This document shows, one piece after another, positions 16,685 through 47,220 of a stretch of 47,308 bases of DNA. Source of the stretch: an uncultured Bacteroidota bacterium. Its GTDB lineage: Bacteria > Bacteroidota > Bacteroidia > Bacteroidales > P3. The notes beneath the pieces were generated by a model. That model was not told the origin of the DNA. It was given only the letters and a program-made list of their open reading frames with translations, and ran no database searches. How positions within the stretch are numbered: the stretch's first letter is position 1; each line of letters begins with the position of its first letter. The stretch is taken from positions 1 through 47,308 of the forward strand of contig CADAQX010000024.1 of assembly GCA_902790215.1 (NCBI GenBank). The letters run 5' to 3'. The position numbers were made by a program, and so were the translations under genes.

Positions 16685-16688
16685 TTGG

Positions 16689-33840: not shown

Positions 33841-33848
33841 TATTTTTG
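33841..33848 (+). promoter_or_regulatory. -7 box of sigma cassette 1
   Basis: TATTTTTG matches TAnnTTTG. It lies inside the first codons of the longest open frame (start at 33836) and so argues for the downstream ATG at 33896. Confidence 0.5.
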
Positions 33849-33895
33849 CATCTAACTATATAGGAAAAGGGAAAAAAGGCAAAAGACAAAACGAC

Positions 33896-34411
33896 ATGGG
33901 CACCATCCGTCGCGAAGAGATAGAGTTCAGTAGAATGCTCGACAGTGTCAAGGGCATTATACTAAAGGTATGCCATGCATTCTCCGGACGGGAGAGAACC
34001 GAGACCGAGGACCTCTACCAAGAGATTGTGGCCGACCTGTGGCAAGGGCAGCACACCTTCAGGGGGGAAAGCGACGTGAAAACCTGGGTCTATAAAGTGG
34101 CCGTCAACAGAGCCCTGATGCGCCGACGGCAGCAACACGACAGCGACATCGTCTTAGTGCCAATCGACGGCAAACTCGCCGACCGGCTGGCCGACGAGCC
34201 GGAGGACAAACAGATAAAGCTCCTCTACGAACTGATAGAACGCCTCACCGACGAAGAGAAAACCATCATCTTTCTCTACATCGACAGGCTCAAGACCAGC
34301 CAGATAGCTTTAGCCACAGGCAAGAGCGAAAGTGCCGTGAGACAGATTATAAGCCGAACAAAAATAAAACTTAGAATGCTATATGAAAAAGAAAAAGAAA
34401 ATGACAGATGA
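33896..34411 (+). CDS. ECF sigma-70 factor, cassette 1
   Basis: 171 residues. The region-2 helix shows ETEDLYQEIVADLWQG and TFRGESDVKTWVYKVAVNRALMRRR. The region-4 helix-turn-helix is LTDEEKTIIFLYIDRLKTSQIALATGKSESAVRQIISRTK, given here as DRLKTSQIALATGKSESAV. The ATG at 33896 is preferred over 33836 because of the -7 box between them and because it gives nearly the same length as the paralogue at 45631 (172 residues). The two N-termini align over EFSRML and EFEEML. The gene overlaps the membrane-partner gene by 29 nt. It presumably directs RNA polymerase to envelope-stress or autoregulated promoters; targets are unknown. Confidence 0.92.
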   Translation: MGTIRREEIEFSRMLDSVKGIILKVCHAFSGRERTETEDLYQEIVADLWQGQHTFRGESDVKTWVYKVAVNRALMRRRQQHDSDIVLVPIDGKLADRLADEPEDKQIKLLYELIERLTDEEKTIIFLYIDRLKTSQIALATGKSESAVRQIISRTKIKLRMLYEKEKENDR

Positions 34412-35066
34412 GTGCAAAGACAATGAGAGGTTGAAAATTGAAACACATACCCCGGTCTTCGACCACCCCTCTCAAGAGGGGATGCCTGACGAAAGTGACA
34501 ACTCTCAATTCTCAACTCTCAACTCTCAATTCTTGGACGACCCCGACCCCGCCGACGAGGAGGTGGATGCCTTCTTTGCCGAACTGCAGGCCGCGTGGGA
34601 CGCCCATTCGCGCCGTATTGATGAGTTCGTCGCCCGCAACAGGGAGAATCTCGACCAGTACAACCATCAGATTGTTCAGGCCATACAGCGGCGCCACCGG
34701 GCAAGGCGCATCAAGACGGCCGCGCTCCTCCTGTCCGTTCCCGTCGCCATGTTTTTCATCTATGTCTATTGCTACCCGTTTCTGCGCACCTTCTACTCTT
34801 TGATTCTTGCCGCCGTTGCCGCCTATTCCTTCTTCGGGCACGAAAGAGAGGGGAATCCCTATTACCAATACCCCGTTCTCAGTTTACCGCTCGTAAGCGC
34901 GTGCCGCTCCCGTGTTGTGGGATGCGTAGCCCTCGCACTAATCGCCTCCACAGTCTGCTTCCCTGCCGCCGACGGCAACAACATATCTGCCCTCGACAGA
35001 AGTACCCGCACAACCGTGGTGGCAGACATCGGCGCCGTTTTAAATAATACACCCCCCATGTCATGA
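34383..35066 (+). CDS. Membrane partner of the sigma factor (anti-sigma candidate), cassette 1
   Basis: 227 residues. The cytoplasmic N-terminal part contains VDAFFAELQAAWDAHSRRID (62-81), strikingly like DDAFFAELQSIWDSHSRRVE in cassette 2. Two or three transmembrane segments follow (about 112-132, 138-150 and 175-195), then a short extracytoplasmic tail. Position and topology suggest an anti-sigma factor, but no ZAS/RskA-type domain is recognisable. Residues ~18-51 are encoded by the filler repeat (LKIE...NSQFSTLNSQF) and are absent from the paralogue. The stop overlaps the next start (ATGA). Confidence 0.75.
   Translation: MKKKKKMTDECKDNERLKIETHTPVFDHPSQEGMPDESDNSQFSTLNSQFLDDPDPADEEVDAFFAELQAAWDAHSRRIDEFVARNRENLDQYNHQIVQAIQRRHRARRIKTAALLLSVPVAMFFIYVYCYPFLRTFYSLILAAVAAYSFFGHEREGNPYYQYPVLSLPLVSACRSRVVGCVALALIASTVCFPAADGNNISALDRSTRTTVVADIGAVLNNTPPMS
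34431..34534 (+). repeat. GAAAATT/CTCAATT filler inside the cassette 1 membrane gene
   Basis: 5' arm TTGAAAATTGAAA (34431-34443), a centre with a CCCCTC-TCAA-GAGGGG hairpin, and a 3' arm of CTCAATT/CTCAACT 7-mers (34500-34534). Translated in frame. Confidence 0.8.
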
Positions 35067-35392
35067 AAAACAAGCGTCCGTTATTCGTAGTGTTGCTGTG
35101 CCTGCTTCTTGCCGGCGGGGTAGTCCTTGCCCTGCTCCCGCGCTGCCCCATGCCGTGGCAGTGCAGCAAGCTATACTGGCAGTATCGGGGGCAGGAAGGT
35201 ATCGAAGCCTCCTATGTGCGCGACTACCCCGTCGACGACACCACCTTCGTCGATGTCACCCTCCTCCACGCCACCACCGACTCCGCCTGGGTAAGCCTGT
35301 GCCACGAGTTTGTCCCCTACGAATTCGCCGACAGCAGCGATTACATCAACAAGCTCATTCACGATACCTACACACAAACAACAATACACTAA
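35063..35392 (+). CDS. Small exported protein of cassette 1
   Basis: 109 residues: one N-terminal hydrophobic segment (PLFVVLLCLLLAGGVVLALL), acting as signal or membrane anchor, and a ~80-residue extracytoplasmic part including VDVTLLHATTDSAWVSLCHEF. That last segment is matched by LDVTVILAKDSATFVWLMKEF in the broken gene of cassette 2, which is the only relative I can see. It is coupled by ATGA to the membrane-partner gene and lies 4 bp before the lipopeptide gene. Function unknown; it could sense or modulate the sigma/anti-sigma pair. Confidence 0.75.
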   Translation: MKNKRPLFVVLLCLLLAGGVVLALLPRCPMPWQCSKLYWQYRGQEGIEASYVRDYPVDDTTFVDVTLLHATTDSAWVSLCHEFVPYEFADSSDYINKLIHDTYTQTTIH

Positions 35393-35396
35393 TACC

Positions 35397-35498
35397 ATGA
35401 AAAGAATTCTTATTCCGGCGACACTCCTCGCCATGCTTTCGCTGACCACCGTCAGCTGCCAGAAAGAAAACCTCACCGAGCCCCCGGCTTCCGCATAA
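35397..35498 (+). CDS. 33-residue lipopeptide of cassette 1
   Basis: A complete lipoprotein signal (MKRILIPATLLAMLSLTTVSC, Cys21) is followed by only 12 residues, QKENLTEPPASA. The translation start is positioned 4 bp after the preceding stop. The paralogue at 47119 has the same length and almost the same mature peptide. If lipidated, the product would be a 13-residue acylated peptide. It may be a genuine short lipopeptide or the frozen stump of a larger SCQKEN-type lipoprotein; conservation in both cassettes favours some retention. Confidence 0.65.
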   Translation: MKRILIPATLLAMLSLTTVSCQKENLTEPPASA

Positions 35499-35586
35499 TC
35501 AATACACAGAGACCCCCAAAAATCAACACACCCGACAACCAAAAAAGGAGACACAATGCATGACAAAACAGCAAGCCCCGCACTCG
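35448..35586 (+). repeat. 139-bp direct repeat, copy 1
   Basis: Identical to 47170-47308 except for five substitutions, with no gaps. Similarity starts abruptly at the lipobox codons of the lipopeptide gene and extends through the stop into noncoding DNA. Copy 2 is cut by the window end, so the repeat may be longer. Confidence 0.95.
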
Positions 35587-35618
35587 CCAGAACGGTACGC
35601 CGGAGTGTAGGGGCATAA
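35556..35618 (+). CDS. Possible 20-residue ORF within the 139-bp repeat
   Basis: ATG preceded by AAAAAAGGAGACACA, then MHDKTASPALARTVRRSVGA and a stop. The start and first ten codons are unchanged in copy 2 at 47278, but the AGGAG there has become TGGAA. Too short to judge; conservation may only reflect recent duplication. Confidence 0.2.
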   Translation: MHDKTASPALARTVRRSVGA

Positions 35619-35678
35619 AAAAAGATGCCGCCGCAGGGGAGGGAAACCTTTCCACAACCCTCTCCCTGCCGCGCGGCA
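35617..35678 (-). terminator. GC-rich hairpin followed by T-tract on the minus strand
   Basis: Arms 35626-35643 and 35658-35678 pair with small gaps. On the minus strand the stem is followed by TCTTTTTTT. A minus -7 box TATTTTTG lies at 35808-35815, so a ~190-nt minus-strand RNA is conceivable, with no gene to explain it. Confidence 0.45.
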
Positions 35679-35837
35679 CCCAAGGCATAAAGCAGTCGCT
35701 TCATACTGCAAAAAAATAACAGCAGACGACTGGCTTTATTGTGCGGCACAAGGAAAAAATCTGCACCCTGCCGCACAGCACCCATGCAGAGCAATTACAA
35801 GAAACAACAAAAATAACAATTAAAAACACATTCAGTC

Positions 35838-37523
35838 ATGAAAAGCATACTTTTAAAAGCACTGATTGCCGCAGTGGCCGTGCTGGCCTGCCACACCGCC
35901 ACCGCGCAGATCACCGACACCATATACAACAGGTACCCGCGCTACCACTACACCGAATGGTACGACACCACGCCCGAATTCTACGACACCTGTCGCGATT
36001 TCCCGCCCCGGATGCTGATGTCGGTGGAAAATCAGTATACAACGTGGACTACCGCCAAGGAGCATTTCAGCCACGATACAATCGCCGTGAAGGGCATCGC
36101 CGTCATGGTGAGTATGAACCGGGGTCCCAATGTGGACCCTTACCTCGTGGCACAAGGCACCACACGACTGCCGGAATACGCCATGCTTGGCCATTACAAC
36201 CTCGACAGCAACACCATGACCATCATCAGCGACTCGCTGCGGTGGGACACCAACGACCCCAAAATCATGAGGGTGGAGCTGTGCTACCAGCAGGAATGCT
36301 GCATCCACGACTGCTACGTCTATGAGGCCTACTTCACCAAAGCCCCCGTGCTGGTCGACTCCTCGTTCTTCATCGTTGCCACCACCAACAGCAATGTGGA
36401 GGTGCGCCCCAACCCCGCACGGGTGCTTCGTCCCTATAAGCCCACTATCTATGTCGGGGTCACCGCGGAGTCTAGGCCGCCTGACTTCGGACCAGCCCAT
36501 ATGCGGGAACTCACATATGTCGAGGTGACACCGGGTAATTTCGTGTGGTCGCTCCACAGTGACCCAGACCTACCCTTCGGTGTTTACTTCGGGGGATTCT
36601 TCCCCATAGTCGACTACTACAACCTTGAGGCCCGACCGGAGGACTCCTGCGTCCACATGGGCACCGTCACCGGCTCAGGCAGATACACCGACAATGTCGC
36701 CCGCCGCATCACCGCCGTGCCTGCCCCCCGCTACCGTTTCCTCCAATGGAACGACGGCAACACCGAAAATCCCCGCACCGTCTACCTCACGCAGGACACC
36801 CTCTTCACCGCCGCCTTCACCATCGCACTGCCCTGCCGCGCCGACGCCCTGACAGAGGACTCCACCCGCGGCATCGCCACAGGCAGCGGCAACTACTCCC
36901 AGGGCGACACCGTCACCTTCACCGCAATCCCCAATACCGGCTACGCATTCCTCAACTGGAGCGACGGCAGCACCGACAACCCCTACCGCTTCATCATCAC
37001 CCGCGACACCGCCGTCACCGCCATCTTCCGCAACCTCGCCTCCTACCGTGTCAATGCCACATCCAGCAACCACTCATGGGGCTTCGTCACCGGCGGCGGA
37101 ACCTACTGGGAGATGGACACCGCCACCCTCTCGGCCACTCCCCGCGAAGGCTACAGTTTCCTCCACTGGAATGACGGCGACACCGTCAACCCGCGCACCA
37201 TCATCGTCACGCAGGACACCGCCTTCACCGCCCACTTCGCCTCACCCCAGGGCATCGCCGCCCCCGACGCAAAGGCACCCATCTTCACCCTCACCCCCAA
37301 CCCCGCCCGCAACAGCGTAACGGTAACCATCAACCCTCAACTCCCAATTCTCAACTCCCAACTCTCAATGACCCTCACCGACGCCACAGGCCGCGAACTC
37401 CTCAACACCAAAGTCTCAACGCTCAACTTCCAACTTCCACTTTCCCAATACCCCGCCGGCACCTACTTCCTCACCCTCCGCACCCCCGACGCCTCCTCCA
37501 CCCAGCGCCTGGTAATCAAGTAA
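35838..37523 (+). CDS. Type IX secretion cargo protein with InlB-type repeats
   Basis: 561 residues. Signal peptide ends at ATAQ (24). Residues ~25-270 are an unrecognised Tyr/Asp-rich domain. Three InlB B-type (beta-grasp) repeats follow (about 280-335, 345-398 and 404-465), each with F-L-x-W-(N/S)-D-G-x-T-x-N-P-(R/Y) and T-(Q/R)-D-T-x-(F/V)-T-A. The end (about 478-561) is a type IX sorting domain: LTPNPARNSVTV, DATGRELLNT, YPAGTYFLTL, QRLVIK. The protein should be exported by the Por system and anchored at or released from the surface. CTCAATT filler is translated inside the sorting domain (NPQLPILNSQLSM, VSTLNFQLP). Confidence 0.85.
   Translation: MKSILLKALIAAVAVLACHTATAQITDTIYNRYPRYHYTEWYDTTPEFYDTCRDFPPRMLMSVENQYTTWTTAKEHFSHDTIAVKGIAVMVSMNRGPNVDPYLVAQGTTRLPEYAMLGHYNLDSNTMTIISDSLRWDTNDPKIMRVELCYQQECCIHDCYVYEAYFTKAPVLVDSSFFIVATTNSNVEVRPNPARVLRPYKPTIYVGVTAESRPPDFGPAHMRELTYVEVTPGNFVWSLHSDPDLPFGVYFGGFFPIVDYYNLEARPEDSCVHMGTVTGSGRYTDNVARRITAVPAPRYRFLQWNDGNTENPRTVYLTQDTLFTAAFTIALPCRADALTEDSTRGIATGSGNYSQGDTVTFTAIPNTGYAFLNWSDGSTDNPYRFIITRDTAVTAIFRNLASYRVNATSSNHSWGFVTGGGTYWEMDTATLSATPREGYSFLHWNDGDTVNPRTIIVTQDTAFTAHFASPQGIAAPDAKAPIFTLTPNPARNSVTVTINPQLPILNSQLSMTLTDATGRELLNTKVSTLNFQLPLSQYPAGTYFLTLRTPDASSTQRLVIK
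37331..37446 (+). repeat. CTCAATT/CTCAACT filler inside the sorting domain
   Basis: Two runs (37331-37370 and 37411-37446) of TCAACTCCCAATTCTCAAC-type units, translated as NPQLPILNSQLSM and VSTLNFQLP. More of the same filler follows the stop codon (37524-37562). Confidence 0.65.
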
Positions 37524-37637
37524 ATTGAAAAGTGAAAGGTGAAAATTGAAAGGTGAAAAGTAGGCGGGATTATTCAAGGAATCCTCTACCCCCTGAAATG
37601 GGCATTTATGATACTCATTATTGAATATTAAACCCAA

Positions 37638-37685
37638 ATTGCCGTGAATGCGCCACGAATTAATGGTCATTCACGGCAATTCGTG
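37638..37685. repeat. Interlocking inverted repeats (A-B-A'-B')
   Basis: A = ATTGCCGTGAATG (37638-37650) pairs perfectly with 37668-37680. B = CACGAATT (37654-37661) pairs perfectly with 37678-37685. The two helices interleave and share 3 nt, as in a pseudoknot or a two-state switch. Confidence 0.8.
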
Positions 37686-37745
37686 TTTTAACCGTTAGTG
37701 TTTCATACCTAATTGCCACTTGACACAATCAAGCAATCACTCAAG

Positions 37746-37823
37746 GGTCGTCATTTATTCGCTCGTTATTCGATCGTTTTCCACTCTTTTTCCGTTTCAG
37801 AAAGGGAAAAATGAGGGAAACAC
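37746..37823 (-). repeat. Purine-rich ~75-bp repeat, copy 2 (inverted)
   Basis: Reverse complement of 18886-18962 with a few mismatches. The reverse-strand reading begins TTTCCCTCATTTTTCCC and ends AATGACGAC. Confidence 0.85.
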
Positions 37824-37924
37824 ATTGGAAATCGACAGGATTTTGATGCGCCAAGGACTAACACAATAACACGTTAACACATTCACACATTCATTCAAAA
37901 ACACAAATAATCATTAATTGACCA

Positions 37925-37946
37925 TAAACCCAAATCGGTCATTAGG
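37925..37946 (-). repeat. CCTAATGACCGATTTGGG motif
   Basis: Minus-strand full match, flanked on its 5' side by the same GTCGG as the 19107 copy. Confidence 0.8.
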
Positions 37947-38172
37947 CCGACATTTATATCCTTTCTCGCTTTTTCAGGTCTCTTTATGCCATATCAGCAT
38001 TTCTTCCGGCATCTTGTCCACATCCCTGTCTCGCCGTAGCCCGCTACGCCTTAACTTCGTTGGCGTTGCTATGGCTCGGCAGAGCAAGCAAGCTTCCTCT
38101 GCTCTCGCTTTACGCAACGTTCGCCAGCGATATGGCCAATCTGCTCGAAACAAATACTAATCTGGCATAAAT

Positions 38173-38190
38173 CCCAATGACCGATTTGGG
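38173..38190 (+). repeat. CCTAATGACCGATTTGGG motif variant
   Basis: CCCAATGACCGATTTGGG, one substitution, which makes the outer arms CCCAA/TTGGG perfectly complementary. Confidence 0.75.
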
Positions 38191-38250
38191 ATAAATTAAT
38201 GAATAATTAACGGAAATTTTGCGTTAATGTGTCAAGGTGTGTTCTATTAA

Positions 38251-38300
38251 AGGTAGTTCTATTAATTGCAAGTAATTACAAGTAATTAATAGAACTACCT
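38251..38300. repeat. 17-bp perfect palindrome
   Basis: AGGTAGTTCTATTAATT (38251-38267) and its exact complement (38284-38300) enclose 16 nt containing AAGTAATTACAAGT. A further half GTTCTATTAA precedes it. No T-tract follows on the plus strand. Confidence 0.85.
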
Positions 38301-38322
38301 CAGATACTAATCCGGCATAGTC

Positions 38323-38340
38323 CCTAATGACCGATTTGAG
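38323..38340 (+). repeat. CCTAATGACCGATTTGGG motif variant
   Basis: CCTAATGACCGATTTGAG, one change, followed by TTGAGAGTTGG filler. Confidence 0.7.
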
Positions 38341-38462
38341 TTGAGAGTTGGCTGGCGCACCGCATGTCAACTATTCTTCACCATTCACAATTAACCCTTC
38401 ACCATTTTGGGTTAATTTTTAATTTTTAAATTTTTATTTTTATATATGTCGCAGATTATTCT

Positions 38463-38470
38463 TATTTTTG
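38463..38470 (+). promoter_or_regulatory. -7 box of holB
   Basis: TATTTTTG matches TAnnTTTG, 20 bp before the start codon. No TTTG at the expected -33 position. Confidence 0.5.
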
Positions 38471-38490
38471 TAGATTAATTTGAGCCTATT

Positions 38491-39543
38491 ATGCAGTTTA
38501 AAGATATTGAGGGTCAGCAGGTTCTTGCCAACAGGCTGACAGAAATAATCGATGCGGGACGCATCAGCCACGCCCAGTTATTCCTCGGCCCGACGGCCAG
38601 CGGCAGTCTGGCGCTGGCTGTTGCCTACGCCCAATATCTCTGCTGCGAGCATCGGCAGCATTACCCGGAGGGGTCGCCTTTGCGGGCCGACAGCTGCGGC
38701 GAATGCCCCAGCTGCCGCAAGTTTTCCCAGCTGATGCACAGCGACCTGCATCTGGTGTTCCCCACCACGACCACTGCCACGGTGACGAGCAAGCCCTGCG
38801 CGGAGGATTTCTACGAGGAGTTCCGCGCCTTTGTGGCCGACACCAATGGCGTGGGCACGGAGGACGAGTGGTTTTCGCGCCTGGGGGTGGAGAACAAGCA
38901 GGGCATGATTCGCGAGCGCGATGCCGACAATATCATCCGGGCGCTGGGCATGAAGTCGTATGAGGGTGGCTACAAGGTTGTGGTGGTGTGGATGGCGGAG
39001 CGCATGAACCTTGTGACGGCGAACACCCTGCTGAAGACCCTCGAGGAGCCGGCGGAGAAGACGCTGCTGCTGCTGGTGGCCGAGAGCCGCGACCGGCTGC
39101 TGCCCACCATCATGTCGAGGGTGCAGCAGGTGGTGGTGCCCAACCGGGGGACTGGCCTGTCGGAGGAGCGGAGGGAGGCTTTTGCCGCGCTCTTTGTGTC
39201 GTGGATGAGGCTGCTTTTCAAGCTGAACATGCAGCCCCTTTCGGCCTGGGTGGACCAGGCGGCGGGCATGGGTCGCGAAACCCAGAAGCTTTTCCTGCAG
39301 TATGTGCTTGAGGCATTGCGCGCCTGTTTCCTGCAGACGGCTGCGGGCTACAGCCTGGAAAGCGAGTTGCAGTTTGGCGACGCCAAGTTCGACACGGCGT
39401 TCCCCGCCAGAATCAAGCCCGCCAACATCGAGCAGATGAACGAGGCGGTGAACGAGGCCCTGTATGCCATAGAGCGCAACGCCAACGCCAAGATCACTTT
39501 TATGCAGCTCTCGTTCAAGATGAGCCGCTGTTTGAAAAAGTAA
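38491..39543 (+). CDS. holB: DNA polymerase III delta' subunit
   Basis: 350 residues, a clamp-loader subunit. The AAA+ fold is present with a degenerate P-loop (LGPTASGSLALA, 32-43, no Lys), normal for delta', which does not hydrolyse ATP. Zinc-module cysteines are at 51/52, 69, 72 and 75 (CGECPSC). The conserved ANTLLKTLEEPAEKTLLLLV and TIMSRVQQV (SRV in place of the usual SRC sensor motif) follow. It heads the run holB-ricT-gldH-PBP1A, an order I recognise as common in Bacteroidales. Confidence 0.93.
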   Translation: MQFKDIEGQQVLANRLTEIIDAGRISHAQLFLGPTASGSLALAVAYAQYLCCEHRQHYPEGSPLRADSCGECPSCRKFSQLMHSDLHLVFPTTTTATVTSKPCAEDFYEEFRAFVADTNGVGTEDEWFSRLGVENKQGMIRERDADNIIRALGMKSYEGGYKVVVVWMAERMNLVTANTLLKTLEEPAEKTLLLLVAESRDRLLPTIMSRVQQVVVPNRGTGLSEERREAFAALFVSWMRLLFKLNMQPLSAWVDQAAGMGRETQKLFLQYVLEALRACFLQTAAGYSLESELQFGDAKFDTAFPARIKPANIEQMNEAVNEALYAIERNANAKITFMQLSFKMSRCLKK

Positions 39544-39583
39544 GAACCAAGAGTCAAGAATTAAGAAGTATCATTAGAATACC

Positions 39584-41203
39584 ATGGAAGAAAAGAAATA
39601 CCCGGTGTCCGGGCAGACTATTGAAGACAAAGAGCAGAGAGTTAACCCGCAGGCGGCAGCTCCCGCTGAGCAACCGGCCGGCAACGCCGATGTGGACGAC
39701 GATGCCGCCACGGCCGAGGAGATGGAGGCCTTTATCCGTGACCGCCGCGAGAAGGAGAAACGCTCCAAGATAAAAGATGACGATGCCGACGAAGTGGATA
39801 TCTTCGGCGAGTATATGGCGCCGGAGAATTCGATAGACCCCTATCTGGAGCCCGACCCCACGCTGCCGTGGGTGAAATACGAGGAGAGCGTTTTCCTCTC
39901 GCGCGGGTGCAGACGGTGCCCCGAGTCGTATGTGCCGGTGAAGGAGTCGGAGACGCGCAGCTGCAGCAAGGTGACTTCGTGCAACTGGATGCGCGGCATC
40001 CGCCAGCCCGGCATCAAGCCTTTCGACTGCGTGGAGGTGCGCTTTAAGAACAACCGCAAGGACTTCTACCGCCTGCCCGACGGGCTGGAGGTGACCGAGG
40101 GCGACGTGGTGGCCGTGGAGGGTTCGCCGGGACACGACATCGGCATTGTGAGCCTGACGGGCGAGGTGTGCCGCATCCAGATGAAGAAACGCCGTGTGAA
40201 CCCGGAGGACGAGAATGTCCGCAAATTGTTCCGCCGTGCCAAGAGCACCGACCTGGAACGCTGGGTGGCCAGCCTGAAGAACGAGAACGAGGCCTTGCTC
40301 AAGACCCGCCGCATTGCCCAGGACCTGAACCTGGAGATGAAGGTGAACGATGTGGAGTACCAGGGCGACAACGCCAAGGCCATCTTTTACTATACCGCCG
40401 ACGACCGGGTGGACTTCCGCACGTTGATTAAGGTGCTGGCCGAGGAGTTCCACGTGCGCATCGAGATGAAGCAGATAGGCGTGCGCCAGGAGGCCGGCAA
40501 GGTGGGCGGCCTGGGCACCTGCGGCCGCGAGCTGTGCTGCAGCACCTGGCTGACCAATTTCAAGTCGGTGACCACCAGCGCCGCCAAGACACAGCAGATT
40601 CTGCCCAACCCGCAGAAGCTGGCCGGGCAGTGCGGCAAGCTGAAGTGCTGCCTCAACTTTGAGTGCGAGGTGTATGCCGACGCTTTGAAGAAGTTCCCGC
40701 CCGCCAATATCTCCATCCGCTTTAAGAAGGGGCTGGCCATGTATAAGAAGACCGATGTGTTCCGCGGCATCATGTGGTATGCCTATGAGAACGAGAGTGA
40801 CCTCTACGCCATCCCGGCCGAGAGCGTGAAGCAGCTGATAGAGATGAACCGCCATCAGGAGTATCCCGAGCGGCTGGAAGACTATCAGGTGGAACTGATG
40901 TCGACGGCGGCACTGGCACAGGAGACCGACAACGCCGAGTTCGAGCGTGAACTGCGCCGCATGTCGGACGACATGGCCGAGGCCGACACCCCGACGGGCA
41001 AGGAACAGCGCAGCGACGACCGCCACAACCGTGCCGGCGACAAGCGGCAGAACAACCGCCAGCGCAACGGGGAGCGCAGCGGCAAGCCCCGCCACAACCA
41101 GAACGACCCCGCCCGCAGCGACACCTCGCCGCGTCCGCGCAGCAGCCAGGCCGGCAACCGCCACCCTGCCCGCCGCAATCTCGGCAAGGACCGCCGCGAC
41201 TGA
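39584..41203 (+). CDS. ricT: RicT/PSP1-domain protein
   Basis: 539 residues. The PSP1 core spans about 95-400: EVRFKNNRKDFYRLP, YYTADDRVDFRTLIKVLAEEF, RIEMKQIGVRQEAGKVGGLG, CGRELCCSTW and QCGKLKCCLNFEC. The Cys pairs are those that bind iron-sulfur clusters in the Bacillus RicAFT complex, where RicT helps RNA processing; the Bacteroidetes role is not established. The acidic N-terminal (1-65) and Arg/Asn/Gly-rich C-terminal (470-539) tails look disordered and extend the protein well beyond the Bacillus length. It is 40 bp downstream of holB. Confidence 0.92.
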   Translation: MEEKKYPVSGQTIEDKEQRVNPQAAAPAEQPAGNADVDDDAATAEEMEAFIRDRREKEKRSKIKDDDADEVDIFGEYMAPENSIDPYLEPDPTLPWVKYEESVFLSRGCRRCPESYVPVKESETRSCSKVTSCNWMRGIRQPGIKPFDCVEVRFKNNRKDFYRLPDGLEVTEGDVVAVEGSPGHDIGIVSLTGEVCRIQMKKRRVNPEDENVRKLFRRAKSTDLERWVASLKNENEALLKTRRIAQDLNLEMKVNDVEYQGDNAKAIFYYTADDRVDFRTLIKVLAEEFHVRIEMKQIGVRQEAGKVGGLGTCGRELCCSTWLTNFKSVTTSAAKTQQILPNPQKLAGQCGKLKCCLNFECEVYADALKKFPPANISIRFKKGLAMYKKTDVFRGIMWYAYENESDLYAIPAESVKQLIEMNRHQEYPERLEDYQVELMSTAALAQETDNAEFERELRRMSDDMAEADTPTGKEQRSDDRHNRAGDKRQNNRQRNGERSGKPRHNQNDPARSDTSPRPRSSQAGNRHPARRNLGKDRRD

Positions 41204-41246
41204 TGCAACCTATCCGTATCTATCAACCCTATCCATTCTATCGCCA

Positions 41247-41726
41247 ATGAAAAGACAATACAGAACATTCGCCCTGCTGCCCCTGCTGTTCCTGCTCCTG
41301 CAGGGATGCGACAAGCAGGTATATTTCACCGATGAGCGCGACGTGGACGAGACCGGCTGGAACATGGCCGATGCAGCGGTGTTTGATGTTGATGTGGACG
41401 ATACCCTCCAGGTGTTCGACTTCTTCATCGATGTGCGCAACAGCGTCCATTTCCAGAAGGCCAATGTCTTTTTCTTCATCAACACCACCTTCCCCGACGG
41501 CAGCGTGGCCTACGACACCCTGGAGTGTCCGCTGGCCGATGTCGAGGGGCACTGGTATGGCCGCCGCACAGGCCGCTATGTGGACAGCCGCTTTGTCTTC
41601 CGCCGCCATGTGATATTCCCGCGCACGGGTCTGTACCGCTTCGAGATTCTCCATGGCATGCGCGACACCAATGTGGCGGGGCTGAAAAGCGTGGGGCTGC
41701 GCATAGAACGTTTCGGGACAAATTAA
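41247..41726 (+). CDS. gldH: Gliding-motility-type lipoprotein GldH
   Basis: 159 residues from the ATG at 41247, which begins a lipoprotein signal (LLLQGC, Cys21). The longer frame upstream overlaps ricT and is rejected. The body matches the GldH family: VYFTDERDVDETGWNMADAAVF, FDFFIDVRNSVHFQKANVFFFI, FPDGSVAYDTLECPLAD, FPRTGLYRFEILHGMR. GldH is needed for gliding in Flavobacterium but is kept in non-motile Bacteroidales, so a general envelope role is likely. The final A of its TAA stop is the first base of the inverted-repeat element that follows. Confidence 0.93.
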   Translation: MKRQYRTFALLPLLFLLLQGCDKQVYFTDERDVDETGWNMADAAVFDVDVDDTLQVFDFFIDVRNSVHFQKANVFFFINTTFPDGSVAYDTLECPLADVEGHWYGRRTGRYVDSRFVFRRHVIFPRTGLYRFEILHGMRDTNVAGLKSVGLRIERFGTN

Positions 41727-41890
41727 GAAGCTGTTTAAAATTTAATTCAATGATTTTCTTAAAGAACCTGAACGGCATATTTTCCACCTTTCCTCAGTCA
41801 CAATGGCCCCCCATTGCTCCATCGGAAAGGCGAAAAATCTGCTCGTCCATGTCCATAATAAAATTTATCAATCAAATTTAAACAGCTTCT
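41726..41890. mobile_element. MITE-like element with 14-bp terminal inverted repeats
   Basis: Perfect inverted ends AGAAGCTGTTTAAA (41726-41739) and its complement (41877-41890), extending imperfectly a further ~8 bp (ATTTAATT/TTTGATT), bound a 165-bp AT-rich segment without a gene. Size and structure suit a non-autonomous transposable element. Target-site duplication is unclear. It sits between gldH and the PBP1A gene. Confidence 0.7.
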
Positions 41891-41905
41891 AAAAACAGAA
41901 AAACT

Positions 41906-44158
41906 ATGGCAAAGAAAAAAAACAAGAACAACAGCGACACCATCCGCACTGCCTGGAAGATATTCGCAGGAGTGTGGGCCTTTATATTCCTGTTCTTTAT
42001 CCTGCTGTCGTTGGGATGGCTGGGATTCATGCCCTCCTTCGAGGAGCTGGAGAACCCCCAGAGCAACCAGGCCACCGAGGTTATCTCCGCCGACGGCGAG
42101 ATATTGGGCTTTATCGGCATAGAGAACCGCTCCAATGTCACCTACGACGAGCTGTCGCCCAATCTGGTCAATGCCCTTATCGCCACCGAGGATGTGCGTT
42201 TCTACAAGCACTCCGGCATCGACCCGCGCAGCCTGTTCCGTGTCTTCTTCAAGACCCTTATCGGACGCCACAGCAGCAGCGGCGGCGGCAGTACCATCAC
42301 GCAGCAGCTGGCCAAGAACCTCTTCCCCCGCGAACATAAGGGCGCTATAGGCACGGTGTTTTCGAAGTTCAAGGAGTGGGTGGTGGCCGTGAAGCTGGAA
42401 CACAACTACTCCAAGCAGGAGATTATTGCCATGTACTTCAACACCGTTGACTTCGGCAGCAACTCCTTCGGCATCAAGACCGCCGCCAAGACTTTCTTTG
42501 ACAAGACGCCCACCGACCTCACAGTCAACGAGGCGGCTATGCTGGTGGGCCTGCTGAAGGCTCCCACAGCCTACAGCCCCGTGCTGCATCCCGAGGCCGC
42601 CCTCAACCGCCGCAACACCGTGCTGTCGCAGATGCACCGCTACAACTACCTCAGCGACGAGGACTATGAGAAATACAAGGAGGAGAAAATCGACGTGTCG
42701 CATTACAGTCCCCAGAGCCACAACGACGGCCTGGCCACCTATCTGCGCGAGTACATACGCACCTTTATGAAAGACTGGTGCAAGCACCACCGCAACAGCG
42801 ACGGCGAGCACTACGACGTGCACAAGGACGGTCTGCGTATCTACACCACCATCGACTCGCGCATGCAGCGCTATGCCGAGGCCGCCGTGCGCGAGCACAT
42901 GAGCAAGGAGGTGCAGCCCCAGTTCAACCGCGAGCTGAAAGCCCGCGGCGGCAACCCCTTCTGCGACATCAGCCCCGAGCAGCAGGAGAAGATACTGGTG
43001 CAGGCCATGAAGGGCAGCGACCGCTACTACCAGCTGCACAAGGTGCAGGGCAAGAGCGAGAAGGAGTGCCGCAAGATTTTTAAGGAGAAAGTCAAGATGC
43101 GCGTCTTCTCGTGGAAAGGCAATATCGACACCACCATGTCGCCCTGGGACTCGCTGCTCTACTACAAGAAGTTCCTCAACGTGGGCATGATGTCCGTAGA
43201 ACCCGGCACGGGCTATGTCAAGGCCTACGTGGGCGGCATCAACTACCGCTACTTCAAATACGACAACGTCATGAGCCACCGCCAGGTGGGTTCGACGTTC
43301 AAACCCTTTGTCTATACCATGGCGCTGCAGGACCTGGGCATGTACCCCTGCACCGAGGTGCCCAACTCGGAGGTCTGCTTCGAGGTGTGGGGCCAGCCGG
43401 ACTGGTGCCCCAAGAACTCCTCGCACGAGCGCGAGAACCAGATGGTCACCCTCAAATGGGCCTTGGCGCACTCCATCAACTGGGTGTCGGCCTACCTGAT
43501 GAAACAGGGCTCCCCCGAGCAGGTGATAGCCATTGCCCGCAAGATGGGTGTGGCCAGCGAGATTGACGCCGTCCCCGCCATCTGTGTGGGTACTCCCGAG
43601 ATTACCGTCTATGAGATGGCAGGCGCCATGGCCACCTTCGCCAACAAAGGCGAATATGTCGAGCCTATCTTCATCACCCGCATCGAAGACAAGAAAGGCA
43701 CCGTGCTCGACCGCTTCACCCCCGACCGCCACGAGGCCATCAGCGAGCGCACGGCCTACATGATGATAGAACTCATGAAGGGAGTGGTGCAGAGCGGTAC
43801 AGGTGTCCGTCTCAACTATAAGTATCATCTCAATGAGTTCACCAACTTTATTGCGGGCAAGACGGGTACTACCCAGAACAACTCTGACTGCTGGTTTGTG
43901 GGCATCACACCCAAGCTGGCCACCGCCATCTGGACCGGCGGCGAGGTGCGCAGCATCCACTTCCGCAACATGACCTTCGGACAAGGTGCCGCACAAGCTC
44001 TGCCCATCTTTGGCTACTATATGCGCAGCATCTATACCGACAAGTCGCTCAAGTTCCCGCGCGGCGACTTCGACCGTCCCAATGTGCCCCTTGATGTAGA
44101 GCTCGACTGCTCGCGCTTCCGTCAGGAAGTGGCCGAGGAAGACCCCTACGACTTCTAA
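41906..44158 (+). CDS. mrcA: Class A penicillin-binding protein 1A
   Basis: 750 residues, bifunctional peptidoglycan synthase of the inner membrane. One transmembrane helix (about 19-40). The glycosyltransferase (GT51) domain has ATEDVRFYKHSGID (catalytic Glu95) and GGGSTITQQLAKNLF (127-141). The transpeptidase domain has STFKPF (active-site Ser about 463), SIN (about 523) and KTGTT (about 652). No large C-terminal extension. An ~80-residue segment between the domains (about 330-420, KEVQPQFNRELKARGG onward) is typical of Bacteroidetes. The MITE-like element precedes it and the hairpin array begins right after its stop. Confidence 0.95.
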   Translation: MAKKKNKNNSDTIRTAWKIFAGVWAFIFLFFILLSLGWLGFMPSFEELENPQSNQATEVISADGEILGFIGIENRSNVTYDELSPNLVNALIATEDVRFYKHSGIDPRSLFRVFFKTLIGRHSSSGGGSTITQQLAKNLFPREHKGAIGTVFSKFKEWVVAVKLEHNYSKQEIIAMYFNTVDFGSNSFGIKTAAKTFFDKTPTDLTVNEAAMLVGLLKAPTAYSPVLHPEAALNRRNTVLSQMHRYNYLSDEDYEKYKEEKIDVSHYSPQSHNDGLATYLREYIRTFMKDWCKHHRNSDGEHYDVHKDGLRIYTTIDSRMQRYAEAAVREHMSKEVQPQFNRELKARGGNPFCDISPEQQEKILVQAMKGSDRYYQLHKVQGKSEKECRKIFKEKVKMRVFSWKGNIDTTMSPWDSLLYYKKFLNVGMMSVEPGTGYVKAYVGGINYRYFKYDNVMSHRQVGSTFKPFVYTMALQDLGMYPCTEVPNSEVCFEVWGQPDWCPKNSSHERENQMVTLKWALAHSINWVSAYLMKQGSPEQVIAIARKMGVASEIDAVPAICVGTPEITVYEMAGAMATFANKGEYVEPIFITRIEDKKGTVLDRFTPDRHEAISERTAYMMIELMKGVVQSGTGVRLNYKYHLNEFTNFIAGKTGTTQNNSDCWFVGITPKLATAIWTGGEVRSIHFRNMTFGQGAAQALPIFGYYMRSIYTDKSLKFPRGDFDRPNVPLDVELDCSRFRQEVAEEDPYDF

Positions 44159-44370
44159 GGAGTACGAGCACCTTGCTCGTAACATTTAAGGAGAACGAGC
44201 ACCTTGCTCGTAACATCTAAGGAGTACGAGCATCTTGCTCGTAACATTTAGGGAACACGAGCACCATGCTCGTAACATTTAAGGAACACGAGCACCTTGC
44301 TCGTAACTTTAGGGAACACGAGCACCTTGCTCGTAACATTTAAAGAGAACGAGCATCTTGCTCGTAAAAT
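44159..44370. repeat. Seven tandem 31-bp hairpin repeats
   Basis: Seven units at 44164, 44195, 44226, 44257, 44288, 44318 and 44349, each ACGAGCA-(CCT, TCT or CCA)-TGCTCGT (a perfect 7-bp stem with 3-nt loop) plus a ~14-bp AT-rich linker (AACATTTAAGGAG). They fill the whole gap between PBP1A and rlmN. Differences between units fall mainly in the loop and linker, while all stems are intact. Confidence 0.95.
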
Positions 44371-44386
44371 CTGTAACAATAACATA

Positions 44387-45481
44387 ATGACAAAGGTGAA
44401 TCTCTTCGGCATGACCCTTGCAGAACTCGAAGGCCTCTGCGCCTCCGAGGGCATGCCCCGCTTTGCCGCCAAGCAGATGGCCGACTGGCTCTATGCCAAG
44501 CATGTCGACAGCATCGACGGGATGACCAACCTCTCGCTGAAAGCCCGCGCGCGGCTGAACGAGACAGCCTGCATAGGCCGTCAGGCTCCCATCAACTGCC
44601 AGGTGTCGCGCGATGGTACAAAGAAGTACCTCTTTGAAATTGAAAATTCAAAATTGAAAATTGAAAATAATGCTGACGCCGGCAATAACTCTCAATTCTC
44701 AATTCTCAATTCTCAATTAACCAAGTACGTTGAGGCAGTATATATCCCCGACGGCGACCGTGCCACCCTCTGCATCTCCTGCCAGGCAGGCTGCCGGATG
44801 GGGTGCCGTTTCTGTGTCACCGGCCAGCAGGGGTTTCATGGCAGTCTCTCCGCCGCCGACATCCTCAACCAGATTTTCTCCATCCCCGAGTTCGACCGGC
44901 TCACCAATATCGTCTATATGGGCATGGGTGAGCCGATGGATAATCTTGATGCTGTGCTGCGCAGTACTGAGGTGCTCACCGCCCCCTGGGGGTTGGGCTG
45001 GAGCCCCAAGCGCATCACCGTCTCCACCGTGGGCATCATCCCGGGATTGGAGCGATTCCTCAACGAAAGCCAGTGCCATGTGGCTGTGAGTTTGCACAAC
45101 CCCTTTGCCGCCGAGCGGCAGGACGTCATGCCCATGCAGCGGGCCTATCCCATAGCCGATGTCATAGCGCTGCTGCGCCGATACGACTGGAGCGGCCAGC
45201 GGCGCATATCGTTTGAGTATATCATGTTCCGCGGCCTCAACGACGACACCCGTCATGCTGCCGAGCTGGTGCGCCTGCTCAAGGGGCTCTACTGCCGGGT
45301 CAACCTCATCCGCTTCCATGCCTCGCCCCAAACGCCCTACAAAACCTCCTCGCCCCAGACCATCGACACCTTCCGCGACTATCTCAATGCCCACGGCGTC
45401 ACCTGCACCCTCCGCGCCTCGCGCGGCGAAGACATCATGGCCGCCTGCGGCCTCCTCGCCGGACAGAAGAAAAACGGGTGA
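44387..45481 (+). CDS. rlmN: 23S rRNA/tRNA adenine-C2 methyltransferase RlmN
   Basis: 364 residues from the ATG at 44387; the open frame begins earlier inside the hairpin array and is rejected. This radical-SAM enzyme methylates A2503 of 23S rRNA and A37 of some tRNAs. The cluster motif CRMGCRFC (136-143), RATLCISCQAGC, YMGMGEPMDN, SLHNPF, EYIMFRGLND, and the catalytic Cys in MAACGLL near the C-terminus are intact. Between KYLFE and VEAVYIPDGDRATLC an insert of about 25-28 residues (roughly 86-113) is encoded by filler repeats and has no counterpart in normal RlmN. All active-site parts remain, so the protein is probably functional. Confidence 0.95.
   Translation: MTKVNLFGMTLAELEGLCASEGMPRFAAKQMADWLYAKHVDSIDGMTNLSLKARARLNETACIGRQAPINCQVSRDGTKKYLFEIENSKLKIENNADAGNNSQFSILNSQLTKYVEAVYIPDGDRATLCISCQAGCRMGCRFCVTGQQGFHGSLSAADILNQIFSIPEFDRLTNIVYMGMGEPMDNLDAVLRSTEVLTAPWGLGWSPKRITVSTVGIIPGLERFLNESQCHVAVSLHNPFAAERQDVMPMQRAYPIADVIALLRRYDWSGQRRISFEYIMFRGLNDDTRHAAELVRLLKGLYCRVNLIRFHASPQTPYKTSSPQTIDTFRDYLNAHGVTCTLRASRGEDIMAACGLLAGQKKNG
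44635..44720 (+). repeat. GAAAATT/CTCAATT filler inside rlmN
   Basis: 5' arm of GAAAATT units (44635-44668), a 19-nt unique centre, and a 3' arm of CTCAATT 7-mers (44688-44720). The arms are approximate complements. Translated in frame as LKIENN...NSQFSILNSQL. Confidence 0.85.
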
Positions 45482-45630
45482 AAGTGCTGATTCCCCACCT
45501 CACCCTACTCCTCTCGTTTCCTCCCATCCTCCTTACAGCCAACGCTATAGCGCGAAGGGCGAAAAAATATTTTTCAACACGCGTTACTTTTTTGCCTTTT
45601 TTACGTCTAATATAGAAAAAGTTTTCGAAC

Positions 45631-46149
45631 TTGGCTTCGGACAGACATATCAAAGAAAAGGAATTCGAGGAGATGCTCCGCAACATGGACAGCATCATCT
45701 ACCGGATATGCTTTGCCTTCACCAACCGGCAGCCCGACAATGTTGACGACCTCTACCAGGAGATAACGTGTAAGCTCTGGAAAGGCTGGCTCGGCTATCG
45801 GGGAGAGTGCGACCTCAGGACGTGGGTTTACCGCATAGCCTACAACACCGCCGTGGACGACTACCGCGCACGGCACGCCACCGACAGCCAACGCTTTGTG
45901 CCGTTCGATGACGACCTGAGCGACAACCTGACCGATGAAGTCCACGAGGAACAAGTGGATACCCTCTACCGGCTCATCGACCGGCTCTCCGACAAAGACA
46001 AAGAGATTGTCTTCCTCTACCTCGACCAAGTGCCGGAAAAAGAGATTGCCCGCGTCATTGGCAAAAGTGTGCCCGCAGTGAAACAGTCCATCTATCGTAT
46101 AAAAAACAAATTAAAGAAACAATATGAAAAAGAGAGAAACAAAAGGTGA
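45631..46149 (+). CDS. ECF sigma-70 factor, cassette 2
   Basis: 172 residues if the TTG at 45631 is the start, supported by alignment with cassette 1 (EFEEML with EFSRML, same distance from the end). The next ATG (45673) would cut region 2. Region 2 shows NVDDLYQEITCKLWKGW and GECDLRTWVYRIAYNTAVDDYR. Region 4 shows DKEIVFLYLDQVPEKEIARV and SVPAVKQSIYRIKNKLKK. It is clearly paralogous to 33896-34411. It overlaps the membrane-partner gene by 26 nt, as in cassette 1. A weak TACTTTTTTG sits about 35 bp upstream. Confidence 0.9.
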   Translation: MASDRHIKEKEFEEMLRNMDSIIYRICFAFTNRQPDNVDDLYQEITCKLWKGWLGYRGECDLRTWVYRIAYNTAVDDYRARHATDSQRFVPFDDDLSDNLTDEVHEEQVDTLYRLIDRLSDKDKEIVFLYLDQVPEKEIARVIGKSVPAVKQSIYRIKNKLKKQYEKERNKR

Positions 46150-46717
46150 CGACGCTTTCTTCGCCGAGTTACAAAGCATCTGGGACAGTCACTCCCGGCG
46201 GGTGGAGAAGATAGTGCGCGAGTCTGAAAGCCGCCGGCCGCTCAACTATCGCTATGCCGAGAGCTGCCAGCAGCCCTCACCGCCCGTTCCTCCCCTCGTT
46301 GCAGCACGCCGCATGGTGGGAGTGCGGCTTGCCGCTGTCATTGCCCTTCTTCTGGTCGTGGCAGGCTTCCTTCTACTCTTCAGGGGCAGCCCTGCCCCCC
46401 ACGACACCCTGCAGGCCGGCCTCCCCGAGCCATCCCTCCCCGTCGCTACGCCTCCGGCGGCAGCTCCCGTAGCCGTGCCCCATGCCGTCCCCCGCCACGT
46501 CACCGTGGCAAAAGCCGGGACAGATGCCCGCACCCCCCTGCCCCCCACCGGCGACACCCCGCTGTCCCAACCCGCCGCACCCGCCGACTCCCTGTGCCAG
46601 CCCTGCACTACCATCTCCTTCGACAACGTTCAATACACCGCACTCTACTGCAACAACGAAACCTGCGACACCCAACACTACCTCTACCAAGCATTCGTCG
46701 CCCTCAACCTGGCATAA
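46124..46717 (+). CDS. Membrane partner of the sigma factor (anti-sigma candidate), cassette 2
   Basis: 197 residues. N-terminal DDAFFAELQSIWDSHSRRVE matches cassette 1. One transmembrane helix (about 66-88, VRLAAVIALLLVVAGFLLLF), then a Pro/Ala-rich extracytoplasmic stretch (about 90-160) and a Cys-containing end (CQPCTTISFDNVQYTALYCNNETC). The short cytoplasmic part, single helix and periplasmic domain fit an anti-sigma factor, though no named domain is visible. The N-terminal segment is the only part shared with cassette 1, so it is the likely sigma-binding element. Confidence 0.75.
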   Translation: MKKRETKGDDAFFAELQSIWDSHSRRVEKIVRESESRRPLNYRYAESCQQPSPPVPPLVAARRMVGVRLAAVIALLLVVAGFLLLFRGSPAPHDTLQAGLPEPSLPVATPPAAAPVAVPHAVPRHVTVAKAGTDARTPLPPTGDTPLSQPAAPADSLCQPCTTISFDNVQYTALYCNNETCDTQHYLYQAFVALNLA

Positions 46718-46769
46718 CCCCAACCAGCAACCAAACCCGATAATTCCGAACCCTAAAAACCCCATCATC

Positions 46770-47122
46770 ATGAACAAAGCCGTACTCCTCACCCTGCTCT
46801 CATCCTCGACGTCACCGTCATCTTGGCCAAAGACTCCGCCACCTTTGTTTGGCTGATGAAAGAATTCTTTTTTACCCAAACATATACTAAAGCCGTATCT
46901 GACAATGCACTTGATAATAAAAACCTTGCATCATTCACGTTAATATCAAAAAAACACCCCTTTAACAAAGTATTCTACGACAAAGTGGATGAATGCGATT
47001 TTGTATTGGCATCAACATACTACAAACGAATTAACATATATCACACCCGGAATAAACAACAAATAAAACCATTGATAAAGCTCGCAACTAAAACAATAAC
47101 CCCAAAACTCAATAACAAATGA
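46770..47122 (+). pseudogene. Broken counterpart of the small exported protein, cassette 2
   Basis: Starts with a signal-like MNKAVLLTLL in one frame. Within 12 codons the homologous continuation (LDVTVILAKDSATFVWLMKEF, from about 46802) is in another frame, and about 45 residues present in cassette 1 are missing between the two parts. The second frame then runs to the TGA at 47120, which overlaps the lipopeptide start. A TTG at 46823 could still start a 99-residue cytoplasmic product. The downstream part is noticeably AT-rich compared with its neighbours. Confidence 0.65.
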
Positions 47123-47220
47123 AGAAAGTACTAATCACGGTCGCATTATTTGCCCTCCTCGGCACCGTCACCGTCAGCTGCCAGAAAGAAAACCTCGCCG
47201 AGCCCCCGGCTTCCGCATAA
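47119..47220 (+). CDS. 33-residue lipopeptide of cassette 2
   Basis: MKKVLITVALFALLGTVTVSC (Cys21) followed by QKENLAEPPASA. Same length as the cassette 1 peptide, with one difference in the mature part. The signal halves differ at most positions in DNA, whereas from the lipobox onward the DNA is almost identical, showing a sharp recombination boundary. Coupled by ATGA to the broken upstream gene. Confidence 0.65.
   Translation: MKKVLITVALFALLGTVTVSCQKENLAEPPASA

Follow-up and report, generated by a model that had tools for sequence, protein, structure and literature searches.

Pairs of an ECF sigma factor and a membrane anti-sigma factor are known from Bacteroides and Phocaeicola, where the available portions of two reports describe EcfO and the dual membrane-spanning Das/Dma pairs (PMC9308784, PMC13088901). 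Sigma factors have also been tied to type IX secretion: excerpts of one paper describe the SM6 promoters of Flavobacterium psychrophilum as ECF-type and connected with this secretion, with an ECF/anti-sigma pair among the targets (PMC9723704), and excerpts of two others make the same connection for PorXY-SigP of P. gingivalis (PMC4800418, PMC7712824). Here we describe two loci in a window that comprises an entire contig of 47,308 nt (assembly GCA_902790215.1; genome of 2.98 Mb). We consider it likely, as the best explanation of the whole, that they are partly decayed copies of a genus-wide envelope-signalling cassette that controls exported proteins. The portions of the literature searched gave no description of a cassette of such composition.

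Organization of the Two Loci

The two loci are homologous, with a similarity that exceeds chance, and their upstream parts contain the following features.

33828..33855, + strand: ECF-type promoter GTCAC-N16-CATCTAA before the locus 1 sigma gene (exact match to GTHAC-N10-TTTTT-N-CRWCTAA)
33896..34411, + strand: ECF sigma factor of locus 1, 171 aa (Pfam Sigma70_r2 3.3e-10, Sigma70_r4_2 3.6e-9; NCBIfam sigma70-ECF 1.8e-19)
34383..35066, + strand: gene 2 of locus 1, membrane protein of 227 aa and presumed anti-sigma factor, with hydrophobic segments beginning near residues 112 and 178 (hydropathy)
34572..34616, + strand: conserved FFAELQAAWDAHSRR segment of locus 1 gene 2 (strict-motif count)
35063..35392, + strand: gene 3 of locus 1, shortened copy of a membrane-anchored exported family, 109 aa (profile positions 1-89 only)
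45583..45610, + strand: ECF-type promoter of locus 2, GTTAC-N16-CGTCTAA (pattern match)
45631..46149, + strand: ECF sigma factor of locus 2, 172 aa, TTG start (Pfam/NCBIfam profiles and likeness to sigma 1)
46124..46717, + strand: gene 2 of locus 2, membrane protein of 197 aa and presumed anti-sigma factor, with a single hydrophobic segment beginning near residue 67 (hydropathy)
46157..46201, + strand: conserved FFAELQSIWDSHSRR segment of locus 2 gene 2 (strict-motif count)
46770..47122, + strand: gene 3 remnant of locus 2, lacking a match to the first 60 or so profile positions (start out of frame with the C-terminal part)

The conserved order runs from the sigma gene through a membrane partner with an FFAELQ-type segment to two exported proteins and then an exported cargo, often type IX-secreted. 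Locus 2 ends at 47308, with its cargo beyond the contig, because the window is the whole contig. The repeated signalling-type cassette of ECF sigma factor, membrane partner and exported proteins that had been proposed from the sequence is supported. The sigma lengths of 171 and 172 residues were confirmed, as were the overlaps between genes 1 and 2 of 29 nt (locus 1) and 26 nt (locus 2) with starts at 34383 and 46124; an alternative in-frame ATG at 34401 in locus 1 would give an overlap of 11 nt instead. Both proteins have Sigma-70 regions 2 and 4 and a length within about 160–190 aa, as ECF factors do, and the two share 45% identity (E = 4.7e-42).

The synteny survey was a search with gene 4 alone in a genome set that represents the genus solely by metagenome-assembled genomes, and it yielded 41 loci, five being seeds. 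Gene 3 lies upstream of gene 4 in 40 of them and a sigma gene was detected upstream by profile in 36; a divergent sigma factor is visible in L183, and in the remaining four loci just 137–1534 bp precede gene 4. Both gene 3 copies match the family profile, and neither is complete: the locus 1 copy covers positions 1–89 of about 155, and at locus 2 the frame of the ATG at 46770 stops at 46856, while the homologous part lies in another frame (46799–47077) and matches positions 61–151 only. A relative of gene 3 has an AlphaFold model with a mean pLDDT of 85.8. Nothing above cut-off or significant was found for this family in Pfam, or in NCBIfam for the window gene 3 alone, and the fold search of gene 3 and gene 4 models against the PDB returned nothing at E ≤ 0.001. 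A kinship of gene 3 with protein G, and of gene 4 with Protein L, was rejected, the PDB sequence matches having E-values of 0.085 or worse.

Promoter Element and Membrane Partner

Upstream of both sigma genes, where a conserved promoter element had been suggested as a thing to look for, a common one is present. The pattern was drawn from upstream regions and afterwards counted on the same regions: an initial strict form fitted 7 of 66 and was then widened, and the pattern is missing in 29 of the 66. The housekeeping TAnnTTTG was discarded as the common promoter, being present in just 19 of these regions. Within the window, three matches at ≤2 mismatches compare with 0.02 expected, and across the 2.98-Mb genome GTHAC-N10-TTTTT-N-CRWCTAA has seven exact matches and none with one mismatch, against one control match. 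These genomic sites precede four sigma genes and a secreted InlB-repeat protein (contig C30), and in tandem they also precede a type IX-secreted protein of 1734 aa with a T9SS sorting domain (contig C26). Congeneric genomes gave 64 exact matches in 33 of 119, again against a single control match.

The FFAELQxxWDxHSRR motif noted in the original prediction occurs in both gene 2 products, at residues 64–78 (locus 1) and 12–26 (locus 2). Of 67 distinct gene 2 candidates, 29 carry its strict form, where shuffles average 0.145, and it co-occurs with the promoter (27/9/2/27 of 65 pairs, Fisher 1.6e-8); owing to kinship among the rows and some nearly duplicate loci, these values overstate the significance. 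The other 38 candidates lack it, some candidates being wrong picks. Gene 2 has the layout of the second member of a sigma/anti-sigma pair, lying directly downstream of the sigma gene and combining, by hydropathy only, an N-terminal soluble part with a membrane segment. In the account favoured here, gene 2 would hold the sigma factor, probably through an N-terminal FFAELQ-type helix.

The 33-Codon Lipoprotein Frames

Downstream of gene 3, each locus carries a short lipoprotein ORF, whose acylated 13-mer had been proposed as the last product of the module.

35397..35498, + strand: 33-codon lipoprotein ORF of locus 1, putative stump of an approximately 137-aa gene 4 (alignment to longer relatives)
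47119..47220, + strand: 33-codon lipoprotein ORF of locus 2, second putative gene 4 stump (alignment to longer relatives)
35447..35586, + strand: DNA repeat common to both loci, 96%, covering the point where the lipoprotein ORF ends and the leader starts (repeat comparison)

Among the 41 loci having gene 4, its ORF is 125–160 aa long in 34, and in most homologous loci a confidently folded domain of about 100 residues follows the lipobox. The locus 1 33-mer was aligned with 16 longer relatives; over 33 residues, it and the N-terminal end of the L147 gene 4 product share 66.7% identity (tblastn E = 1e-9). The junction that ends the 33-mer, searched at ≤3 mismatches, is found in the source genome only, out of 120, and in 0 of the 119 other congeneric genomes; the short ORF is not kept as such across homologous loci. 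From these alignments, the 33-residue lipopeptide is most likely a broken N-terminal stump of the approximately 137-residue gene 4 lipoprotein. Positions 35447–35586 and 47169–47308 form a 140-bp repeat with 96% identity that runs from inside the lipobox past the stop codon into non-coding DNA. Both stumps end inside this repeat, and their equal length is therefore one shared event; the identical length that had been noted stands at 33 codons each, but the two lengths are not independent. The gene 4 family has nothing above cut-off or significant in Pfam or NCBIfam. In L147, gene 4 is itself frameshifted further downstream.

A Structured Segment Before the Cargo Gene

Between the stump and the next gene lies a segment that we read, as the best interpretation of its sequence, as a new conserved leader RNA with a putative regulatory function.

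35499..35837, + strand: structured leader from gene 4 stump to cargo, locus 1 (-91.1 kcal/mol, z -5.28)
35661..35790, + strand: leader RNA core, separated from the cargo start codon by 48 nt (model R1, E 2.9e-40 for a sequence used in its training)
35838..37523, + strand: cargo, secreted, InlB-type repeats and T9SS sorting domain, 561 aa (PF18998 9.5e-28, PF18962 7.2e-8)
47221..47308, + strand: start of the second leader copy, locus 2, cut by the contig end (repeat and partial-copy comparison)

The leader is found almost exclusively in one genus, with 78 matches to the model in 41 of 119 congeneric genomes and a match in 1 of 246 other genomes of the order. On the same strand, an ORF starts 29–137 nt (median 48 nt) after the leader in 27 of 28 evaluable copies, and all 27 ORFs are exported-like, compared with 333 of 3000 random positions; on the antisense side, a start codon is in place at 4 of 30. 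In the model-fitted alignment, both partners are changed in 17 of 23 pairs, giving 90 cells of this kind where shuffles give 24.3, a contrast overstated by kinship among rows and nearly duplicate loci; the signal is weak in an unfitted 7-row alignment, with both-side changes in 2 of 28 pairs and an unfavourable covariation term of +1.05. Of the 41 seeded loci, only 6 have the leader within about 420 bp after gene 4. Partial copies are present on contigs C30, C32 and C39 of the source genome, the C30 copy folding weakly (z -1.15).

The cargo at 35838–37523 has a C-terminal sorting domain above cut-off (PF18962/TIGR04183), as type IX substrates do. By a profile built partly from the loci it was scored on, such a domain lies downstream in 21 of 32 loci having at least 3 kb of sequence and is lacking in 11; across the whole source genome it has 82 matches.

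Discussion

Three readings compete with parts of this account. The 33-mers could be functional small lipoproteins that, once matured to an acylated 13-mer, serve the module as its output or signal, given that both retain an intact signal peptide and lipobox, that one position differs between the copies in the mature 13 residues, and that further short gene 4 forms exist (L167, 41 aa; L197, 43 aa; L192, 63 aa). Those other short forms have different ends, however, and the L192 tail resembles, by eye, the end of the cargo gene in L161/L162; the DNA identity of the two copies is equally strong in the non-coding part, the exported cargo stands downstream of the supposed last product, and both the folded domain of most homologous loci and the confinement of the junction to the source genome argue against it. 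We regard the acylated 13-mer as unlikely to be the product, a tempting false lead now corrected in favour of a gene 4 stump.

Gene 2, for its part, might not be an anti-sigma factor and might have another role in the envelope, the sigma factor being controlled otherwise, for instance through its own expression. Neither copy has a known anti-sigma domain (zinc-binding, FecR or other) above cut-off in Pfam or NCBIfam, and the predicted hydrophobic segments vary from one to four across the loci compared. Against this, the frame that begins beside the sigma gene, the one place inspected, has a predicted membrane segment in the loci compared; the sole exception is cut by a contig end. The N-terminal segment of gene 2 is conserved and varies with the class of promoter before the sigma gene. 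We think this alternative improbable. Somewhat less improbable, though still unlikely, is a reading of the structured segment at the DNA level, either as a mobile or palindromic element or as a site at which recombination exchanges the cargo. Contigs C24 and C32 terminate within leader copies and C13 within a near-copy of locus 1 gene 3, on C39 a 496-aa gene separates the leader from the next secreted-type gene, and one cargo gene is common to two relatives, of which one has an extra lipoprotein gene after the leader. The orientation and spacing before start codons, the compensatory changes in pairs, and the position of 4 of the 78 copies 113–437 nt downstream of the promoter motif speak instead for a leader RNA.

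With gene 2 as anti-sigma factor and the segment as leader, the membrane protein would hold the ECF sigma factor, probably via the FFAELQ-type helix, until a signal from beyond the inner membrane, in whose sensing the exported gene 3 and gene 4 products probably take part, frees it. From GTHAC-N16-CRWCTAA promoters, the freed sigma factor would then transcribe the operon that encodes it together with a small number of unlinked genes, and the output would be an exported protein, here the InlB-repeat protein with its T9SS sorting domain, whose mRNA would carry the conserved structured leader shortly before the start codon. A deletion ending beside the leader, common to both loci, probably left the gene 4 stumps. 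More tentatively, and with some doubt on our part, the loci may belong to a modular surface-display regulon, in which a conserved front end (ECF sigma factor, anti-sigma factor and two sensor-like exported proteins of new families) serves exchangeable cargo, the new leader RNA gates cargo translation on envelope or export state, and promoter and leader mark the same regulon, unlinked cargo genes included. Envelope signalling may be tied to surface-exported proteins in a gut and rumen genus, and the analysis yields a testable promoter, a short candidate regulon, two unnamed exported protein families and the leader RNA.

FecI/FecR-type signalling is not indicated: gene 2 has no FecR match in Pfam or NCBIfam, and at locus 1 gene 2 is followed by gene 3, the gene 4 stump and the T9SS-type cargo, with no TonB-dependent transducer. 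The NCBIfam model sigma_PG0214 / GFO_1088 ranks with the better ECF models for each of the sigma factors, at 55.8 and 62.2 bits, though both scores fall far under its curated cut-off of 130 bits. Like the Rfam Bacteroidales-1 and similar structured RNA candidates, which the available part of PMC2864571 describes as restricted to Bacteroidales, the leader has a narrow distribution; it reached the cut-off (gathering threshold) of no family in Rfam 15. As in the EcfO and Das/Dma systems, so far as the consulted portions of PMC9308784 and PMC13088901 describe them, an ECF sigma gene of Bacteroidales is followed by one for a membrane anti-sigma factor, with regulation of its own operon and a role in the envelope. 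Dma proteins are described there as large proteins in which a long tether leads to a C-terminal beta-barrel, whereas gene 2 encodes 197–227 aa, matches no barrel family in Pfam or NCBIfam, and is followed by two exported partners. SM6 and PorXY-SigP, in the excerpts of PMC9723704, PMC4800418 and PMC7712824, reportedly control secretion-machinery genes, whereas the targets predicted here are the exported cargo.

The 33-residue peptides are remnants of a longer lipoprotein gene

The genome from which the window derives (2.98 Mb, 40 contigs, 96.85% complete) contributes it as the complete contig C24 (47,308 bp). In the window sequence, the gene order, lengths, overlaps and FFAELQ motif of both loci matched the original prediction, which described a duplicated ECF sigma cassette ending in a functional 33-residue lipopeptide with an acylated 13-mer as its product:

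33896-34411, 34383-35066, 35063-35392: locus 1 sigma gene, gene 2 (presumed membrane anti-sigma factor), gene 3 (exported)
35397-35498, 35838-37523: locus 1 33-codon ORF (gene 4 position), cargo gene
45631-46149, 46124-46717, 46770-47122, 47119-47220: locus 2 sigma gene, gene 2, gene 3 remnant, 33-codon ORF

The two lipopeptides are indeed equally long, but they are not independent, since both end in a 140-bp repeat of 96% identity that starts inside the lipobox and runs past the stop codon into non-coding DNA. At the equivalent position, a paralogous cassette of the same genome (contig C39) encodes a 135-aa lipoprotein; longer gene 4 relatives, of 159 and 273 aa, occur in its C9 and C6 cassettes, respectively, and homologues of ~137 aa in many same-genus loci. 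Scanning named genomes with five lipoproteins as seeds gave 41 loci, seeds included, of which 34 carried a gene 4 ORF of 125–160 aa and the remaining seven ORFs of 41, 43, 63, 78, 81, 107 and 282 aa. The 33-mer junction, with up to 3 mismatches allowed, was absent outside our genome among the 120 genomes searched (our own included). From these lengths and the restriction of the junction to a single genome, we concluded that the 33-residue lipopeptide is a stump of a longer gene 4 and unlikely to be a product in itself.

Among the off-length forms, the gene 4 tail at one locus (L192) resembles by eye the end of the cargo gene in L161/L162, and at another (L194, 6001-6849) gene 4 is a fused, longer protein (282 aa), in which the domain joined to the lipoprotein leader is presumably of the formylglycine-generating-enzyme type. 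On the basis of these forms, gene 4 seems to have repeatedly decayed or recombined directly after the lipobox. With the window's locus left out, the distance from the end of the gene 4 match to the core of the downstream leader RNA was 131–205 bp in 20 cases (including two pairs that each represent one locus fetched twice), 260–416 bp in 3 and 1.5–1.9 kb in 2; in locus 1, the core lies 172 bp past the end of the stump's match. The stump may have arisen by a deletion within gene 4 that left the leader intact, and the identity of the two stumps would reflect copying from locus to locus.

A conserved cassette of sigma factor, gene 2, gene 3 and gene 4

Gene 3 lay upstream of gene 4 in 40 of the 41 seeded loci and a sigma gene in 36, with a divergent sigma gene in the L183 ORF list; the other four had 137–1,534 bp of sequence ahead of gene 4. 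The sigma genes of both window loci are of the ECF type, and relatives of sigma 1 (E ≤ 1e-20) were found in 42/59 congeneric genomes, our own counted in. Relatives retrieved with gene 4 were Bacteroidales MAGs from rumen and gut; beyond the genus, gene 4 relatives (E ≤ 1e-8) occurred in 2/246 other genomes of the order. The strict gene 2 motif was present in 29/67 distinct candidates vs 0.145 in shuffles, a count that is too low because the automatic gene 2 pick was wrong at some loci (e.g., L057, L008, L065).

AlphaFold predicted folded domains for gene 3 (mean pLDDT 85.8) and gene 4 (83.4, with the first ~38 residues poor). Pfam searches with members of both alignments gave no convincing family match, NCBIfam matched none of the gene 4 members, and a PDB fold search with both models returned nothing at E ≤ 0.001. 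Gene 3 of locus 2 is divided over two frames, its first ~60 profile positions being without a match. A further cassette, cut by the end of contig C13 (L057, 1-1544), has a gene 3 closely resembling that of locus 1, and repeats of this family seem to break the assembly.

A shared promoter motif

GTYAC-N16-CRTCTAA was found upstream of the sigma genes of both loci. A widened pattern, derived from the very regions then counted, matched 37/66 upstream regions vs a shuffle mean of 0.06. The tight form, GTHAC-N10-TTTTT-N-CRWCTAA, had seven exact matches in our genome and none with one mismatch (control, 1 match). Four of these lie ahead of sigma 1 and the three paralogues closest to it; one precedes a secreted InlB-repeat protein on C30, whose gene is cut by the contig edge before any sorting domain could be seen, and two in tandem (L205 9346-9479, C26) precede a fibronectin-type protein of 1,734 aa that carries a T9SS sorting domain. 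Across 119 congeneric genomes, the tight form gave 64 matches in 33 genomes vs 1 control match, and in the first 59 genomes 26 of 49 matches lay ≤400 nt ahead of a listed relative of sigma 1. A motif-positive gene 2 partner accompanied 27/36 promoter-positive sigma genes vs 2/29 promoter-negative ones, the rows being related.

A candidate structured leader RNA precedes exported-like genes

The 339 nt between stump and cargo in locus 1 had a folding z of -5.28; copies scored -4.79 (G036), -3.77 (G056), -5.01 (C39) and just -1.15 (C30), the last beginning where we would put the transcription start for the promoter site on C30. A covariance model built on the core (130 nt) gave 78 matches in 41/119 congeneric genomes (own included); elsewhere in the order, 246 genomes yielded a single marginal hit (E 9.1e-4). 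For 43 selected matches (39 distinct) in an alignment fitted to the model, 17/23 pairs changed on both sides, and cells of this kind numbered 90 vs 24.3 in shuffles and far fewer in slid controls; 12/17 pairs did so in the structure that RNAalifold itself predicted from these 43 rows, and just 2/28 in an unfitted 7-row alignment.

Placement was assessed at 30 best-per-genome loci, 28 of which had sufficient downstream sequence. In 27 of these 28, an ORF started 29–137 nt (median 48) after the leader, and a simple hydropathy criterion classed the N-terminus of all 27 as exported-like; random positions gave 1,205/3,000 and 333/3,000, respectively, and the antisense side of the leader 4/30 and 0. 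Since gene 4 lay upstream in 15/30 of these loci (window counted), the promoter motif 113–437 nt ahead in 4/78 copies and a listed sigma 1 relative ≤3 kb ahead in 11/78, the leader marks cassette cargo and other exported genes alike. It followed gene 4 within about 420 bp in 6/41 seeded loci, and is therefore not obligatory for the cassette.

Within the sequence retrieved downstream, a same-strand T9SS sorting domain was encoded in 21/32 seeded loci with ≥3 kb of such sequence and in 2/9 with less; the profile that detected it was derived from the cargo of locus 1, a further two proteins of our genome and eight proteins encoded at seeded loci. From the 82 such domains in our whole genome, we estimate a chance expectation of about 0.08 per 6 kb of single strand. 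Some loci lacking this cargo type had lipoprotein-like ORFs. At L186 (5901-8037), a leader copy precedes each of two small peptides (86 and 90 aa) that we read as double-glycine-leader-like, which suggests that peptides may also serve as cargo.

Other repeats and genes in the window

A dispersed CTCAATTCTCAACTCTCAA-type repeat lies at 34486-34531 and 44673-44718, with weaker copies at 37311-37449; in frame within gene 2 of locus 1 and within a gene that we take to be rlmN-like (44297-45481), it encodes extra NSQFSTLNSQ-type peptides. The latter gene is preceded by a 31-bp repeat array (TAAGGAGTACGAGCACCTTGCTCGTAACATT, 44125-44372). A region of lower GC (14821-16762), flanked by two tRNA genes, holds two ORFs (15067-15858 and 15851-16471), presumably an AbiEii/AbiEi-like toxin-antitoxin pair.

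A model of the cassette

Upon the established families, synteny, promoter motif, leader placement and truncation, we propose a model in which gene 2 would hold the sigma factor back and the products of genes 3 and 4 would signal the state of the envelope. Once freed, the sigma factor would transcribe its own operon and the exported cargo, the translation of which may be adjusted by the leader.
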